DNA of 64,000 nt from Fimbriimonadaceae bacterium (GTDB lineage: Bacteria; Armatimonadota; UBA10988): the NCBI GenBank assembly GCA_020850355.1, contig JADZEX010000014.1, positions 124,001 to 188,000 of the forward strand, read 5' to 3'. The position numbers were made by a program, and so were the translations under genes. Below, one piece after another: positions 58,664 to 64,000 of this stretch; within the stretch, counting starts at the first letter, position 1; every line of letters starts with the position of its first letter. The notes beneath the pieces are model-generated. The model did not search any database and was not told the origin of the DNA. It worked only from the letters and a program-made list of their open reading frames with translations.

Positions 58664-58672
58664 TGCTAGGCT
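58664..58672 (+). promoter_or_regulatory. Candidate extended -10 promoter for the phosphoesterase
   Basis: TGCTAGGCT lies 20 bases before the ATG at 58692. It has the TG of an extended -10, and the hexamer is a weak match. GGGAGAG follows as ribosome-binding site. Confidence 0.35.
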
Positions 58673-58691
58673 AGCCGTCGGGAGAGCCTCG

Positions 58692-61136
58692 ATGTCGTGG
58701 CTCGCTTGTCTGCTGCTCCTCGCGCCAGCCAGTCCGGGCGGCTGGCCCGGCCCCCAACCCGACGGCCGGATGCTGCTTGCCAACGGCTGGAGCCTGACGC
58801 CGCACGGCCGCCAGGTGGCCCTGCCGTCCGACCTGCCCGTGCGGCTGGTCGCCCAGCCCGGCGGCAGTCTGCTCGCCGTGCAGCATTGCGGCTACCGAGA
58901 GCATCAGGTCACGCTGGTCGATCCCGCCGCGGAGCGGATCGTTGGCCAGCTTCAGGTGCCCCGTTCCTGGAGCGGCTGCGCCTGGACCGGCGACGGTCGC
59001 CGGCTGCTGGTCTCCGGCGGCGTCGACGACGTGGTCCACGTCTTCGATCAGCCGGCGCTCCAACTCGGCCAGCCGGCCGCGCCGCAGCGCTGGCCGGTCG
59101 GCGACCCCAACGCCCTGGACCTCGTCGCCGGCCTCACCGTCGGCCCCGAGGGCCACGTCTACGTGCCGCTGCAGCGGACCGCCAAGCTGGTCAAGCTCAG
59201 CCCGACCGGGCAGATTCTGGCGACCTGGTCGCTGCCCCGTGACAGCTTCCCCTGCGAGGCGCAGGTTGCCGCCGATGGCCAGACGGTCTACGTCAGCCTC
59301 TGGAACGGCCAGCGCGTGGTTGGGCTGGACACCACCAGCGGCCTCGAGACCGCGCGCTATCCGACGGGCCAACACCCCTGCCAGATGCTGCTGGCTCCGG
59401 ATGGACGGCTCTATGTCAGCAACGCCAACGACAACACCGTGACGGTGATCGACACGCGCCGCCGGCGGGTCGACGAGACCATCGTCAGCGCGTTGTACCC
59501 CAACGCCCCGCCTGGCTCGACCCCCAATGCGCTGGCCCTGACCGCCGACGGCGAGACCCTGCTGATCGCCAACGCCGACAACAACAACCTCGCCGTGGTG
59601 GACGTCGAGCAGCGCGGCAAGGCCCGCGGCCGCGGTTTCGTGCCGACCGGCTGGTACCCCACCGCGGTCTACGTCACGCCTGGCGGGAAGGTGGTGGTGG
59701 CCAACGGCAAGGGGGTCCAGACCAGGCCGAACCCCGGCGGACCGCAGCCCGGGCGGCGGACCGACACGGAGCAGTACATCGGCCGGTTGTTCCTCGGCTC
59801 GCTCTCGTTCTATGACCTGCCCCGGGGCGGTGAGCTGGGGCAGCTCTCCGCGCGGGCCTACCGCAACAGCCCGCTCCAGCCGGCCGCGACGCCGCGCGGG
59901 CTGGTCGGCCGACCCGTCGACAGTCCGCTTCCCGCACAGCCCGGCGGCCGCACGCCAGTGCGCTACTGCGTCTACGTGATCAAGGAGAACCGCACCTACG
60001 ACCAAGTCCTCGGCGACGATCCGCGCGGCAACGGTGACCCCAGCCTCTGCCTCTTCCCGCGGGAGGTCACCCCGAACCACCACGCCCTGGCCGAGGAGTT
60101 CCCCCTGCTCGACAACTTCTACGTCGAGTCCGAGGTCAGCGCCGATGGTCACGAGTGGACGATGGGCGCCTACGCCAGCGACTTCGTCGAGCGCAGTTGG
60201 CCAGTCGGCTACGGCGGCAAGGACAGCGTCGAGCTGGCCAACGGCCAGCGCGCCGGGCTGGGCTATCCGTCCGAGGGCGCCTTCCGAGTCGCCACGCCGC
60301 GCGGTGGCTACCTCTTCGACCTCGCAGCCCGCGGCGGGGTCAGCTTCCGCAGCTACGGCGAGTTCGTCACCTCCGGCCCCGGCCAAACCCCGAAGGCCCA
60401 CCTGCCGGTGCTCGAAGGACACTTCGATCCGCTCTTCCGCGGCTTCGACATGCGCTACAGCGAGCAGGCGCGGGTCGACCAGTTCCTCACCGAGTTCCGC
60501 CAGTTCGAGGCCGCCGGCGACCTGCCCCGCCTGTTGGTGGTGCGGCTGCCGAACGACCACACCGCCGGCACCAGCGCCGGCCTGCCGACCCCGCGGGCGA
60601 TGGTCGCCGACAACGACCTCGGCCTCGGGCGCCTGATCGCGGCCCTCTCGCGCAGCCGCTACTGGCACCAGATGGCCGTCTTCGTGGTCGAAGACGACGC
60701 CCAGAACGGCCCCGACCATGTCGACGCCCACCGCAGCCCGGGCTTCGTGATCAGTCCCTACGCCCGCCGCGGCGCCGTGGTCCACACGCAGTACTCGACC
60801 TGCTCGATGCTCCGTACCATGGAGCTGATCCTCGGCCTGCCGCCGCTGTCGCAGTTCGACGCAGCCGCCTTGCCACTGTGGGACTGCTTCACCGCCACCC
60901 CGGACTTCCGGCCCTACGACGTCCGTCGCAACCTGATCCCGCTCGACGAGATGAACACCCGCACCGCCTGGGGCGCCGACCTCTCGGCGACCTTCGACTT
61001 CACCCGCGAAGACGCCGCCGACGACCTGCTGCTCAACGAGGTCGTCTGGCGCAGCATCAAAGGCCCCGCCAGCCCGCTGCCCAGCCCGGTCCGCGCGGCC
61101 TTCGTGCGGGTGATCGAGGAGGACGAGGAGGAGTAG
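58692..61136 (+). CDS. Secreted beta-propeller/alkaline-phosphatase-like phosphoesterase
   Basis: An 814-residue protein with a signal peptide (about 1-15). A YncE-like propeller (about 30-400; repeats such as NANDNTVTVIDTRRRRVDETI) is joined to a phosphoesterase domain of the alkaline phosphatase superfamily (about 415-760). Metal-site motifs are VIKENRTYDQVLGD, SADGHEWTMGAYASDF and EDDAQNGPDHVDAHRSP. The 'YncE/phosphatase' pairing is common in environmental bacteria, and the substrate is unknown. Confidence 0.88.
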   Translation: MSWLACLLLLAPASPGGWPGPQPDGRMLLANGWSLTPHGRQVALPSDLPVRLVAQPGGSLLAVQHCGYREHQVTLVDPAAERIVGQLQVPRSWSGCAWTGDGRRLLVSGGVDDVVHVFDQPALQLGQPAAPQRWPVGDPNALDLVAGLTVGPEGHVYVPLQRTAKLVKLSPTGQILATWSLPRDSFPCEAQVAADGQTVYVSLWNGQRVVGLDTTSGLETARYPTGQHPCQMLLAPDGRLYVSNANDNTVTVIDTRRRRVDETIVSALYPNAPPGSTPNALALTADGETLLIANADNNNLAVVDVEQRGKARGRGFVPTGWYPTAVYVTPGGKVVVANGKGVQTRPNPGGPQPGRRTDTEQYIGRLFLGSLSFYDLPRGGELGQLSARAYRNSPLQPAATPRGLVGRPVDSPLPAQPGGRTPVRYCVYVIKENRTYDQVLGDDPRGNGDPSLCLFPREVTPNHHALAEEFPLLDNFYVESEVSADGHEWTMGAYASDFVERSWPVGYGGKDSVELANGQRAGLGYPSEGAFRVATPRGGYLFDLAARGGVSFRSYGEFVTSGPGQTPKAHLPVLEGHFDPLFRGFDMRYSEQARVDQFLTEFRQFEAAGDLPRLLVVRLPNDHTAGTSAGLPTPRAMVADNDLGLGRLIAALSRSRYWHQMAVFVVEDDAQNGPDHVDAHRSPGFVISPYARRGAVVHTQYSTCSMLRTMELILGLPPLSQFDAAALPLWDCFTATPDFRPYDVRRNLIPLDEMNTRTAWGADLSATFDFTREDAADDLLLNEVVWRSIKGPASPLPSPVRAAFVRVIEEDEEE

Positions 61137-61231
61137 GGCCGCAGACGGCGAAGGAAGATCAGCAGGCCTCGCGGTCGACGTCAGCCGCCGGCGCACCATC
61201 GCAGTCGTGGCGAGCAGTGGCCTGCCGCAGC

Positions 61232-61247: not shown

Positions 61248-61676
61248 ATGAGCACGATTTCCTTCATGCCTGACTACAACGATGCTTGCGAGCGTCACTG
61301 GAGTGACGGCCAGACACTACACCGCTTGACCCGGCTGGCCAATGCCGATCACCTGTACGGGCTCGCCGCAGAGTGTGGCCTGAAGGCCGTCATGAAAGAG
61401 CTCGGCATGCCCATCAACAAGCTCACCGGCAAGCCGGCGGTAGCCCTGCATGTCGACAAGCTGTGGGTCCAGTTCGTGACCTTCGCGAACGCCAACGGCG
61501 GCGCCACCTATGCCAGCCTGTTGCCCGGCAGCAACCCGTTCGATGACTGGAAGGTCGATCAGCGGTACGCCGATCAAAGTCAATATGACGCCACCATCTT
61601 GACCAAGCACAAGGCCGGGGTCGAGAAAGTGCGCCGAATTCTGGCCCAAGCGCAGATGGACGGGATCGTGCGATGA
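61248..61676 (+). CDS. HEPN-like small protein, first gene of an unrecognised ATPase operon
   Basis: A 142-residue helical protein. Helix pattern and motifs (ANADHLYGLAAECGLKAVM, residues 31-49; HVDKLW; the RY in DQRYADQS near 106; the C-terminal coil) resemble HEPN domains of toxin and RNase families. The classical R-x4-6-H motif occurs as RLANADH (R29-H35), but between the first helices rather than in the usual C-terminal place, so ribonuclease activity is doubtful. Base use is visibly lower in GC than upstream. The stop overlaps the next gene by four bases. The family and activity are not established. Confidence 0.6.
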   Translation: MSTISFMPDYNDACERHWSDGQTLHRLTRLANADHLYGLAAECGLKAVMKELGMPINKLTGKPAVALHVDKLWVQFVTFANANGGATYASLLPGSNPFDDWKVDQRYADQSQYDATILTKHKAGVEKVRRILAQAQMDGIVR

Positions 61677-63007
61677 GCCAGTTCATACCCTTCGATTCGA
61701 CGAGGGAGCGCATCGGCAAGGCCCTCGGTGCGGTCCCTGCGGTCCTGAGCGAAGTGCCCTCGCTCTGCTTCGTCAGGGACCTGATGGGGCGGGTACGGAT
61801 CCTCGTGGACCTAGTGCCCGAAACGGGCACGCCTGGTGATACCGCCTTGGCGCAGTTCTGTGTGGCGCTTCAGGATCGACTTGGTGCGCACACCCATCCC
61901 GTCGCGCAGATGGTGCTGGCGCTGCCCGACCTGGAGGAGTTGACTCGCGAAGCGCGCGAGGTCCCCATGGGCGCGCACCGGGTACGCTTCCTCGACCGCC
62001 AGGTGACTGGCCTCGGTTGGTCTGCGGTACCGCGGCACGAGGGCCAAACCCAGCACCCGACCCGACTGACGTTCTACTCCGTGAAGGGGGGCGTGGGGCG
62101 AACGACGGCCGCCGTTGTGCTGGCGAAACGCTTAGCGGAAGACGGGCACAGAGTCCTGATGCTCGACCTCGACTTGGAGGCTCCCGGGCTTGCCACAGCG
62201 CTTCTCGAACCGGACGCACAGGCCGAGTTCGGCGTGGCCGACTGGTTCGTTGAGGATCTCGTCGAGCAGGCTCAGTACGTGGAAGTCGACATGGTGGCCA
62301 GAGCTCCGATCGCACGTGACCTGCCCGGAGACATCCTGGTGGCCGGAGCCCACGGGCGCGACCCGGGCGACTACCTTGCCAAGCTCGGGAGGGTCTACCT
62401 CGACAAACCCCCAACTGATGACCGTCCCGCCGAGCCGTGGACGCAGCGCCTCGTGCGGCTCGTGGAAGCCCTGGAGGCACGCTACAAGCCAACGGTGGTT
62501 CTGCTCGACAGTCGCAGCGGTGTGCATGACATTGCTGCTGCGGCCGTGACGGCATTGGATGCGACGGTGCTGCTATTCGCGGGCGGCTCGAACTCGGCCC
62601 TGGCCGGCTACCAGTTGCTCTTCCGCTACTGGCAGAAGCAAGGCGTGGCCGCACAGATCAGGGAGCATCTCAAGCTTGTTGCTGCCCTGGTGCCGGAGAC
62701 GGAGCAACCGGCCCACATCGAGCGCTTGCAGCAGGTCTACTGGGACCTCTTCCTCGACACCCTGTACGACTGCGTCGAACCGGAGAACGACCAAGAACCC
62801 GAATCGGCGCAGACTGAAGACCCAGAGCCTTTCAGCTACGACCTCACGGACGAGACCGCGCCGCATGCGCCTCTGCCGATCTACTGGCATCGTGGGTTGG
62901 CGGGCATCGTTACGCTCCGGGCGCTGGACCAGCCGGTTATCAGCGCCGCCTACGAGAAGTTCCTGAACGGCGTGACTGACCTCCTGCCCGAACTGGAGGC
63001 GACATGA
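61673..63007 (+). CDS. KGGVGRTT-type MinD/ParA-like P-loop ATPase
   Basis: A 444-residue protein. An unfamiliar N-terminal domain (about 1-125) precedes a SIMIBI ATPase with deviant Walker A KGGVGRTT (residues 138-145) and LMLDLDLEAPG; VVLLDSRSGVHDIAAAAV holds the switch/Walker B acidic site. A C-terminal helical region (about 300-444) contains an acidic insert (ENDQEPESAQTEDPEPF). The arginine in KGGVGRTT is seen in ATPases of several NTP-driven conflict systems. It starts by ATGA overlap with the HEPN-like gene and ends by ATGA overlap with the next. Confidence 0.8.
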   Translation: MSQFIPFDSTRERIGKALGAVPAVLSEVPSLCFVRDLMGRVRILVDLVPETGTPGDTALAQFCVALQDRLGAHTHPVAQMVLALPDLEELTREAREVPMGAHRVRFLDRQVTGLGWSAVPRHEGQTQHPTRLTFYSVKGGVGRTTAAVVLAKRLAEDGHRVLMLDLDLEAPGLATALLEPDAQAEFGVADWFVEDLVEQAQYVEVDMVARAPIARDLPGDILVAGAHGRDPGDYLAKLGRVYLDKPPTDDRPAEPWTQRLVRLVEALEARYKPTVVLLDSRSGVHDIAAAAVTALDATVLLFAGGSNSALAGYQLLFRYWQKQGVAAQIREHLKLVAALVPETEQPAHIERLQQVYWDLFLDTLYDCVEPENDQEPESAQTEDPEPFSYDLTDETAPHAPLPIYWHRGLAGIVTLRALDQPVISAAYEKFLNGVTDLLPELEAT

Positions 63008-64000
63008 CAACAGACTTTACCGCTGCTGACTTGCGCCAAGGCATCATCGATGCGTTGCCGCCGGACACGTCGTCCTATGGTGCGCCGCCGGAGGTCCGCA
63101 ACGTCTACCTTCCGAACTCCCATGCGAAGGCCCTTCAGCCTGACGCCATGGTTGTGGCCGGGGGACGGGGCGCTGGCAAGAGCTTCTGGTGGGGAGCGCT
63201 CCAGAAGCGAGAGCACCGCGAACTCATCGGCATACTCTCGCCGAACTCGCAGCTCAACGAGCGAACCATCATCCACACCGGCTTCGGCGAAGTGCCGGAT
63301 CCGGACCACTATCCTGGCCGCGACGTGCTGAAGCAACTGCTCGGCAACGGTGCCGAGGCCCGTCTGATCTGGCGGACGGTCGTCGTTGGCCACCTTGCGG
63401 ATGCAGACCATCCGGCGCGTCGAGGCTCTTGGCCAGAGCGTGTCGCCTGGGTCACCCAACACCCTGAGCAGGTCGACCGTCTACTGTCTGAGCGCGACCA
63501 CCAGTTGGACCAGAGTGCCACCTGGACAATCATCTTGTTCGATGCCCTCGATCGCAGTGCCGCCGACTGGCAGCAGATGCACACGCTGATCCGTGGGCTG
63601 TTGCAGACCGCCCTCGACTTGCGGCCATATCGACGCCTTCGAGCGAAGTGCTTCTTGCGCTCGGACCAACTCGACGAGAGCCAGGTTGCAGATTTCCCGG
63701 ATGCCTCGAAGGTGCTTACCTCTAAGGTCGAACTGAGCTGGCCGCGCTCTGAGCTGTACGGTCTGCTCTGGCAGTATCTGGGCAATGCCACCTCGGGCGG
63801 GGAAGCCTTCCGAAGGCTGACACCAGGGGTCAGCGGAGGCTGGTCATCGATCTCGGTCACTGGCCGCCCGTTCTGGCGGGTACCGCGCGAACTGCTGGGG
63901 GACCAAGTTCTACTGCGGGCCGCCTTCCACCAACTGACTGGCGAATGGATGGGCAAGAACGCCAAGCGCGGGTTCCCCTACATTTGGATCCCTGGCCATC
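63004..64000 (+). CDS. P-loop ATPase, third gene of the operon (partial)
   Basis: 332 residues are visible before the window ends and no stop is met. The N-terminus has Walker A GGRGAGKS (residues 53-60) after a short leader, and Walker B ILFDALDRS (D180, D183). The stretch FLRSDQLDESQVADFPDASKV followed by ELSWPRSELYGLLWQYLG resembles the sensor and winged parts of STAND/KAP-like ATPases. It is probably the switch of a larger protein, with an effector or sensor domain beyond the edge. The ATG is fixed by the ATGA overlap. Confidence 0.75.
   Translation, partial: MTTDFTAADLRQGIIDALPPDTSSYGAPPEVRNVYLPNSHAKALQPDAMVVAGGRGAGKSFWWGALQKREHRELIGILSPNSQLNERTIIHTGFGEVPDPDHYPGRDVLKQLLGNGAEARLIWRTVVVGHLADADHPARRGSWPERVAWVTQHPEQVDRLLSERDHQLDQSATWTIILFDALDRSAADWQQMHTLIRGLLQTALDLRPYRRLRAKCFLRSDQLDESQVADFPDASKVLTSKVELSWPRSELYGLLWQYLGNATSGGEAFRRLTPGVSGGWSSISVTGRPFWRVPRELLGDQVLLRAAFHQLTGEWMGKNAKRGFPYIWIPGH

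Follow-up and report, generated by a model that had tools for sequence, protein, structure and literature searches.

Another copy of the candidate anti-phage system PDC-M28, bracketed by direct repeats, in a Fimbriimonadaceae genome

At the right edge of a 64-kb stretch of DNA from a Fimbriimonadaceae bacterium (contig JADZEX010000014.1, positions 124,001 to 188,000; this whole stretch is called the window below), open reading frame (ORF) calling places three adjacent plus-strand genes, here A, B and C (Table 1). We found that this cassette is another copy of PDC-M28, a candidate anti-phage system that is already catalogued. All three genes matched the PDC-M28 models of PADLOC-DB (A 3.4e-45, B 2.4e-128, C 1.4e-109), and they lie side by side in the order A-B-C. 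The likeness takes in all three proteins at near full length and in the same order, with no decisive difference; the window copy is a solitary cassette enclosed by direct repeats. The PDC-M28C match was made on the part of C that falls within the window (profile positions 1-326 of 480), and the full C matched, at 7e-201, a hidden Markov model made from plasmid homologues and C itself. PDC-M28 is a candidate of PADLOC-DB v2.0.0 (models PDLC04557-04561, 2023 release), and the three matches rule out the suggestion of the first-pass annotation, made from the letters alone, that the set is undescribed. We read PDC-M28, with a probability of roughly 0.5, as an abortive-infection module in which C would be the sensor, B the switch and A an RNase effector; a defence role in general is likelier than this detailed mechanism, and we consider it quite probable. 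Among PMC open-licence papers, none was found that names PDC-M28 or gives its mechanism. PDC candidates reportedly stem from a ‘guilt-by-embedding’ study, according to the accessible parts of PMC10855318 and PMC12988326; judged by its title alone, that study is a preprint of 2024 from Payne and colleagues, which PMC13092281 cites.

The A-B and B-C junctions are stop/start overlaps of 4 nt each, in agreement with the first reading of this DNA. That reading also had the operon continuing past the right edge of the window, which proved correct for gene C, whose stop lies 503 bp further on, and incorrect for any additional gene. Reading the contig past the edge, we found no fourth gene overlapping C or following it closely; the next gene (L002:4697-8812, 1371 aa, L002 being the locus of the window cassette with its right flank) begins 193 bp on and has host-like guanine-cytosine (GC) content. 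The lower GC noted at first sight for the gene set was upheld: the insert of 3,466 bp has 64.7% GC against 72.2% in window positions 1-61142, and 0/577 sliding windows of 3,466 bp in the first 61 kb were as GC-poor. Third-position GC was 0.76-0.80 in A, B and C and 0.85-0.93 in the six neighbouring genes measured. Among 61 related genomes, a full-length best match to B was found only in the window’s own genome, with 57 of the other 60 giving partial best matches (up to ~200 of 438 positions) and three giving none. Together, the low GC and the presence of a full-length B in this genome only point to horizontal gain of the cassette.

Relatives of B in genomes numbered 555 in a search partly seeded on the B loop motif, and the best 80 of these are the genome loci described here; by record title they represent 18 named phyla, with Pseudomonadota accounting for 40/80, and L065 is the copy of Azotobacter vinelandii CA. 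Further relatives came from 22 viral-collection loci and 20 plasmid records, and none from phage records. The order A-B-C is conserved: A lay upstream in 75/80 genome loci, C downstream in 78/80, and both in 74/80, counting broken copies (the broken or two-frame A of L039, L045, L048 and L062 are among the 75). A contig end cuts the A side in L079, L093 and L095; L044 (0.8-0.9 kb on each side) and L083 (0.66 kb to the right of B) showed no partner in their short flanks, and L086 has no recognisable A, though well within its contig. All 12 plasmid regions had A and B, and 11/12 a whole C, the twelfth being cut by the record end. Exact 4-nt overlaps were seen in 57/77 A-B pairs and 40/80 B-C pairs, with starts chosen by a script. 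Removal of proteins more than 80% identical left 75 A, 80 B and 78 C. The alignments held the window’s A together with the full set of 75 A (taking a later start for L026), the window’s B with 78/80 B (L062 and L083 left out), and 77/78 C headed by that of L027, the window’s C being cut (L082 left out). By megablast alone, an Enterobacter copy had no close DNA match in E. coli genomes.

HEPN structures headed both structure lists obtained with the AlphaFold2 model of A (predicted local distance difference test, pLDDT, 96.6), which bears out its initial description as HEPN-like. In Foldseek searches of the PDB, the first nine rows were titled HEPN or Csm6, or were 2q00 or 1ufb (E 0.17-0.97), the top four having a probability of 0.97-0.99 and E of 0.17-0.37; in VIA, the first eight rows had Z of 9.9-12.7, five being titled HEPN and the rest being 1ufb, 2q00 and 2jpu. 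We take 1ufb, 2q00 and 2jpu to be HEPN relatives. This is good but not final evidence for a HEPN helical fold in the predicted structure. E42, K46, H68, W101, R106 and Y107 are invariant in 76/76 A proteins, and in the model H68 is located between the second and third long helices (30-51 and 69-82). The accessible parts of PMC3710099 describe HEPN proteins of the AF0298 and AbiV types in which the motif histidine is missing and a conserved histidine between helices 2 and 3 may form an alternative site, and report an Ex3[KR] motif in many HEPN families. With H68, R106 and E42/K46 each in 76/76 proteins, and with R106 equated with the motif arginine by helix order without superposition, A fits this description and may be such an alternative-site HEPN protein. 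Pfam HEPN models gave no listing for A at E 1, from a library that may not include the MAE_18760 family, and a sequence search for solved-structure relatives returned no credible match for A or C. In L039 (7514-9957), A is split around a 601-aa ORF, transposase-like by eye, and B and C are intact.

The fold of C was taken from a homologue, the C of L027 (predicted model, pLDDT 94.9). Foldseek ranked BrxC first (E 3.5e-6, template modelling (TM) score 0.3), followed by Orc2 and Cdc6, at TM-scores near 0.3-0.4. VIA tied Orc/Cdc6, CED-4 and NLR ATPases at Z ~12-13.5 (2qen 13.5, 1fnn 13.3, CED-4 13.0) and also listed TnsC and MuB. The P-loop, a Walker B of the form hhhhDAhDR and the fold of the homologue place C among STAND/ORC-Cdc6 AAA+ ATPases, and the structural matches of the homologue support the earlier view of C as a STAND-like P-loop ATPase. 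The Sll1717 family (NF047389) reached 47.6 bits against a cut-off of 75 on the window part of C that was scanned. From the helix/strand pattern near its end, C might be guessed to carry a C-terminal winged helix.

Residues 129-321 of B form a KGGVGR-variant ATPase domain (NCBIfam NF047398, 170.3 bits, cut-off 90), confirming a MinD/ParA-type ATPase with the deviant loop KGGVGRTT. B lacks the canonical MinD/ParA signature KGGxGK[ST] with its P-loop lysine: R143 is present in 79/79 and K138 in 78/79 aligned B proteins, from a locus search partly seeded on the loop motif, and 13/13 relatives found without that seed also have arginine at the loop position. The N-terminal ~120 residues conserve R35 (77/79), D36 (76/79), G39 (76/79) and W116 (79/79); Pfam and NCBIfam scans of B gave no match restricted to this part. 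The window’s own genome encodes a second KGGVGR-variant ATPase of ~600 aa (L140:5024-6823, contig C91) whose similarity to PDC-M28B is confined to the first 200 residues; a 192-aa ORF lies ahead of it and, by eye, no full M28 set lies beside it.

Some relatives join a B-like and a C-like ATPase in one protein. Such fusions, of ~880-945 aa, were found in viral-collection contigs L117, L118 (cut), L120, L121 and L126 and likewise in a relative, G010 (L005/L141), with L142 similar in length. One full-length relative was on a Pantoea plasmid, and phage records yielded no B-C fusion. B and C of the ordinary type share a single frame in L040 and L082. These fusions support the idea that B acts with C. 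Upstream of the fusion in L117, L120, L121 and L126 lies a HEPN-like ORF of 153-167 aa, 13-22% identical to A, which keeps E42, K46, W101, R106 and Y107 in 4/4 cases and H68 in 3/4; three of these ORFs weakly matched PDC-M28A (E 0.002-0.007), and one matched a Pfam HEPN model below cut-off. PADLOC returned only partial M28B and M28C matches on the fusions, and so the HEPN-like ORF with the B-C fusion looks like a distant two-gene form that is uncatalogued in that PADLOC-DB release.

Neighbour and embedding scans showed that many homologues sit in defence-rich surroundings, as the first look at the sequence had envisaged. In annotated plasmid loci L015, L016 and L017, genes of type 2 bacteriophage exclusion (BREX) surround the cassette. 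By protein similarity to 18 query proteins taken from the loci themselves, 15/92 genome and plasmid loci are flanked on either side, all on one strand, by genes of a single system (BREX-2 in seven, another kind of BREX in four and DUF1156/PLD-helicase in four), and 10/50 genome loci with long flanks are embedded in this way. Ten large neighbours were scanned singly: seven matched BrxC, PglX (two), PglZ, DrmA, a type III restriction enzyme and a GajB/RT-helicase-type protein, and three had no match. Across the 80 genome loci, the 140 nearest ORFs (70 + 70) matched 179 and 163 PADLOC models at E 1e-10 and the 57 farthest ORFs matched 12; these counts are of models rather than of proteins matched, 124 second-nearest ORFs were left out, and the farthest ORFs are fewer and shorter (16,634 aa versus 68,254 aa), which favours the contrast. 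On the B tree, which lacks L098, the embedded state changes 11 times, with at least six changes forced by starred branches and the same numbers for the 59 rows whose context is visible. As 62/500 shuffles were as low as the observed 11, the embedded state is hardly clustered on this tree; the tree is a quick one with long rows, and thus the count is rough. The embedding fits the back-up effectors, including standalone HEPN proteins, that the accessible parts of PMC12839542 describe in BREX and BREX-related operons.

New here, and absent from the first reading, is that direct repeats of the upstream gene’s 3′ end bracket the window cassette. Only two copies of this 80-bp repeat were found in the genome. 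When flanks of up to 1.5 kb on each side of the cassette were compared, 6/96 loci (L048, L060, L086, L061, L002 and L080) had a direct flank match above 50 bits (88-98% identity, 59-457 bp), against 0/250 cross-locus control pairs and a single inverted match among these 96 loci. The L080 repeats, of about 59 bp, are those of Halovibrio variabilis NBRC 102410. The inverted match (L082:9270 and 12755; 198 bp, 78%) is the only long inverted repeat of the 96 loci. L060 contains 311 N, and its repeat may stem from the assembly. When 93 loci were scanned for exact matches, 17/21 repeats spaced 2.5-5.5 kb apart span the cassette, all from the six repeat loci, and the remaining 4/21 come from four further loci; the same scan of the 64-kb window alone gave no repeats 2.5-5.5 kb apart. 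The flanking of the cassette by long direct repeats is clear. In L086 (9065-12933), a cassette without a recognisable A lies between 182-bp direct repeats of 89% identity.

The repeats may also be linked to gene ends. In 6/6 loci the repeat covers, or ends at most 6 bp from, the 3′ end of an ORF of at least 60 aa, as do 24-94% of randomly drawn segments of equal length, depending on the locus (product 0.02); when only ORFs of at least 140 aa count, 5/6 repeats lie at an ORF end versus 9-61% of random draws. Because open frames are dense, this link is suggestive only. The simplest reading would be insertion with duplication of the flank, for example by single-crossover integration of a circle carrying it. 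An empty counterpart of the insertion site was sought in 20 related genomes, but their closest version of the upstream gene has 50% identity, too distant for the junction to be aligned. Recombinases lie upstream of A in 5/12 plasmid loci (that of L023 is a 130-aa piece); they share at most ~32% identity, except for the L020/L021 pair (88%), and have no relatives in the 80 genome loci at E 1e-5. A cassette-borne integrase was dropped on account of this divergence and lack of relatives, and a 21-bp repeat in L085 was set aside because, judged by eye, it is probably an intergenic element of a common kind. The long direct repeats form a set that is testable for excision, and insertion with duplication, if it holds, has a bearing on the way in which embedded defence genes get into other defence operons and leave them intact.

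In the abortive-infection reading, C, as a STAND/ORC-Cdc6-like ATPase, would sense an infection cue, which may be phage DNA or an attack on restriction-type systems, and would oligomerise with ATP. B, as a switch of the SIMIBI type (MinD/ParA) whose P-loop carries arginine, would couple C to A, presumably within a complex of the three proteins, and A, once released, would cleave RNA through its putative alternative site (E42, K46, H68, R106) and halt the infected cell. Within BREX and DUF1156/PLD-helicase systems PDC-M28 could plausibly serve as a back-up; the window copy is a lone 3.5-kb insert at a gene’s 3′ end. Several observations weigh against this reading. A has no conserved R-H pair at the spacing of the classical RNase motif Rx4-6H, and some HEPN domains without it may be non-catalytic, according to the accessible parts of PMC3710099. 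Foldseek E for A was no better than 0.17, and helical bundles reach high Z easily, which keeps the structure matches of A from being final. A is broken in L039, and in L045, L048 and L062 it is spread over two reading frames; B is retained in these loci, suggesting that A may be dispensable there. Moreover, 77/92 loci are not between genes of the queried system types, and the window copy is not BREX-embedded, with no BREX-type genes among the two genes to its left and the three to its right.

The missing Rx4-6H would suit another defence model: A would be an adaptor, a HEPN protein without catalysis, and the block would come from a DNA-binding, ORC/BrxC-like C that, together with B, holds invading DNA in a clamp and keeps it from being replicated or partitioned. 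The ranking of BrxC, Orc2 and Cdc6 at the head of the Foldseek matches of the C homologue, the TnsC and MuB entries in its VIA list, the MinD/ParA class of B and the existence of B-C fusions would all agree with a clamp. However, five A residues (E42, K46, H68, R106 and Y107) are invariant in all 76 proteins, and all but H68 are kept in the four distant relatives; this conservation looks more like that of an active site than of an adaptor surface, and we consider an adaptor role for A unlikely. Comparably improbable, in our estimate, is a toxin-antitoxin (TA) or addiction module that stabilises mobile DNA, with A as toxin, B (with C) as antitoxin or switch, and phage defence secondary. The accessible parts of PMC3710099 propose such a role for a dyad of a HEPN protein (MAE_18760) and a ParA/Soj ATPase, and the occurrence of B relatives on plasmid records (20) and viral-collection contigs (22), like the long repeats at 6/96 loci, would be in keeping with it; a plain TA pair would nevertheless not usually be sited repeatedly within BREX and DUF1156 systems, nor have a large, sensor-like ATPase as a third member. 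That the genes are no conflict system at all but a housekeeping or partition-like operon is very improbable: B has partition ATPases among its kin, the annotation ‘ParA family protein’ is attached to some homologues and phage records hold no relative, yet the distribution is patchy (a full-length best match to B in 1/61 related genomes, the window’s own), the cassette has low GC and its homologues have defence neighbours.

Comparison with known systems places PDC-M28 near several of them. Like the MAE_18760 dyad, it has a HEPN gene adjoining a SIMIBI ATPase gene; in the accessible parts of PMC3710099, however, the MAE_18760 family is tabled as retaining Rx4-6H, which A lacks, and that system is described with two genes, a STAND-like third one not being mentioned, whereas PDC-M28 has C. 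HEPN proteins of the AF0298/AbiV type resemble A in fold (VIA: 2hsb Z 11.7; AbiV 9bj6 Z 7.2) but are only 11% and 8% identical to it, respectively, in the aligned part, and their partners differ. The BrxC/DUF499 STAND/ORC-Cdc6 ATPases of BREX and BREX-related systems, as described in the accessible parts of PMC12839542, are of the same ATPase class as C, and the cassette is repeatedly found among genes of such systems; C differs in its ~500 aa and its two dedicated partners. The main text of PMC12839542 contains none of the terms MinD, SIMIBI, KAP, PDC and ternary. Some VMAP ternary conflict systems have MinD/ParA-like domains predicted to be inactive, as the arginine loop of B might be, but their core is a MoxR ATPase with a vWA protein, per the accessible parts of PMC7159879, and PDC-M28 has neither. 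What PDC-M28 gains from this analysis is four residues of A to mutate, a fold class for C and, from the fusions, a functional connection of B with C. PDC-M28 might be a non-autonomous mobile immune cassette without its own recombinase that inserts near gene 3′ ends, copying the gene end and sparing both neighbours, and that repeatedly enters methylation-based defence operons as a back-up in which an arginine-loop SIMIBI switch holds an alternative-site HEPN RNase ready, with the two-gene form of a HEPN protein and a B-C fusion serving viruses or prophages; as a whole we regard this as a doubtful, speculative combination.

Table 1. Coordinates of the PDC-M28 cassette, its motifs, its flanking repeats and nearby matches (window positions unless prefixed L002)
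Feature	Position	Strand	Evidence or remark
Gene A, HEPN-like fold (predicted), PDC-M28A	61248..61676	+	142 aa; PADLOC 3.4e-45; AlphaFold2 pLDDT 96.6
Gene B, KGGVGR-variant MinD/ParA-like ATPase, PDC-M28B	61673..63007	+	444 aa; PADLOC 2.4e-128
Gene C, PDC-M28C	63004..64000, stop at L002:4503	+	332/499 aa in window
Ex3K motif of A, codons E42 to K46	61371..61385	+	E and K each 76/76
H68 codon of A, candidate catalytic histidine	61449..61451	+	76/76
R106-Y107 codons of A	61563..61568	+	76/76 each
KGGVGRTT loop of B, residues 138-145, P-loop lysine replaced by R143	62084..62107	+	alignment
Walker A of C, GGRGAGKS	63160..63183	+	lysine invariant in 77/77 homologues
Walker B of C, ILFDALDR	63532..63555	+	first D invariant in 77/77 homologues
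Left 80-bp repeat copy	61063..61142	+	last 74 bp of upstream gene (58692-61136) and 6 bp past its stop
Right 80-bp repeat copy, outside window	L002:4609-4688 (contig C15:188609-188688)		79/80 identical, spacing 3546
HEC-01A match, AAA_21 ATPase gene	L002:8839-10062		PADLOC 1e-150
HEC-01B match, DUF4276 protein gene	L002:10056-10688		PADLOC 7.7e-54; overlaps HEC-01A gene

Around the window cassette, PADLOC gave no match for the two genes to the left, and the next gene to the right had a glycoside-hydrolase-like match only (C3a214, 6.9e-14). An 842-aa open frame on the minus strand (window 58671-61199) lies opposite a plausible 814-aa gene and is probably an effect of high GC. Past the window’s edge, 4.3 kb rightward of the cassette, lies a second catalogued candidate defence pair, HEC-01A/B, and relatives of the HEC-01-type AAA_21 ATPase also occur near PDC-M28 in L036, L041, L093 and L097.

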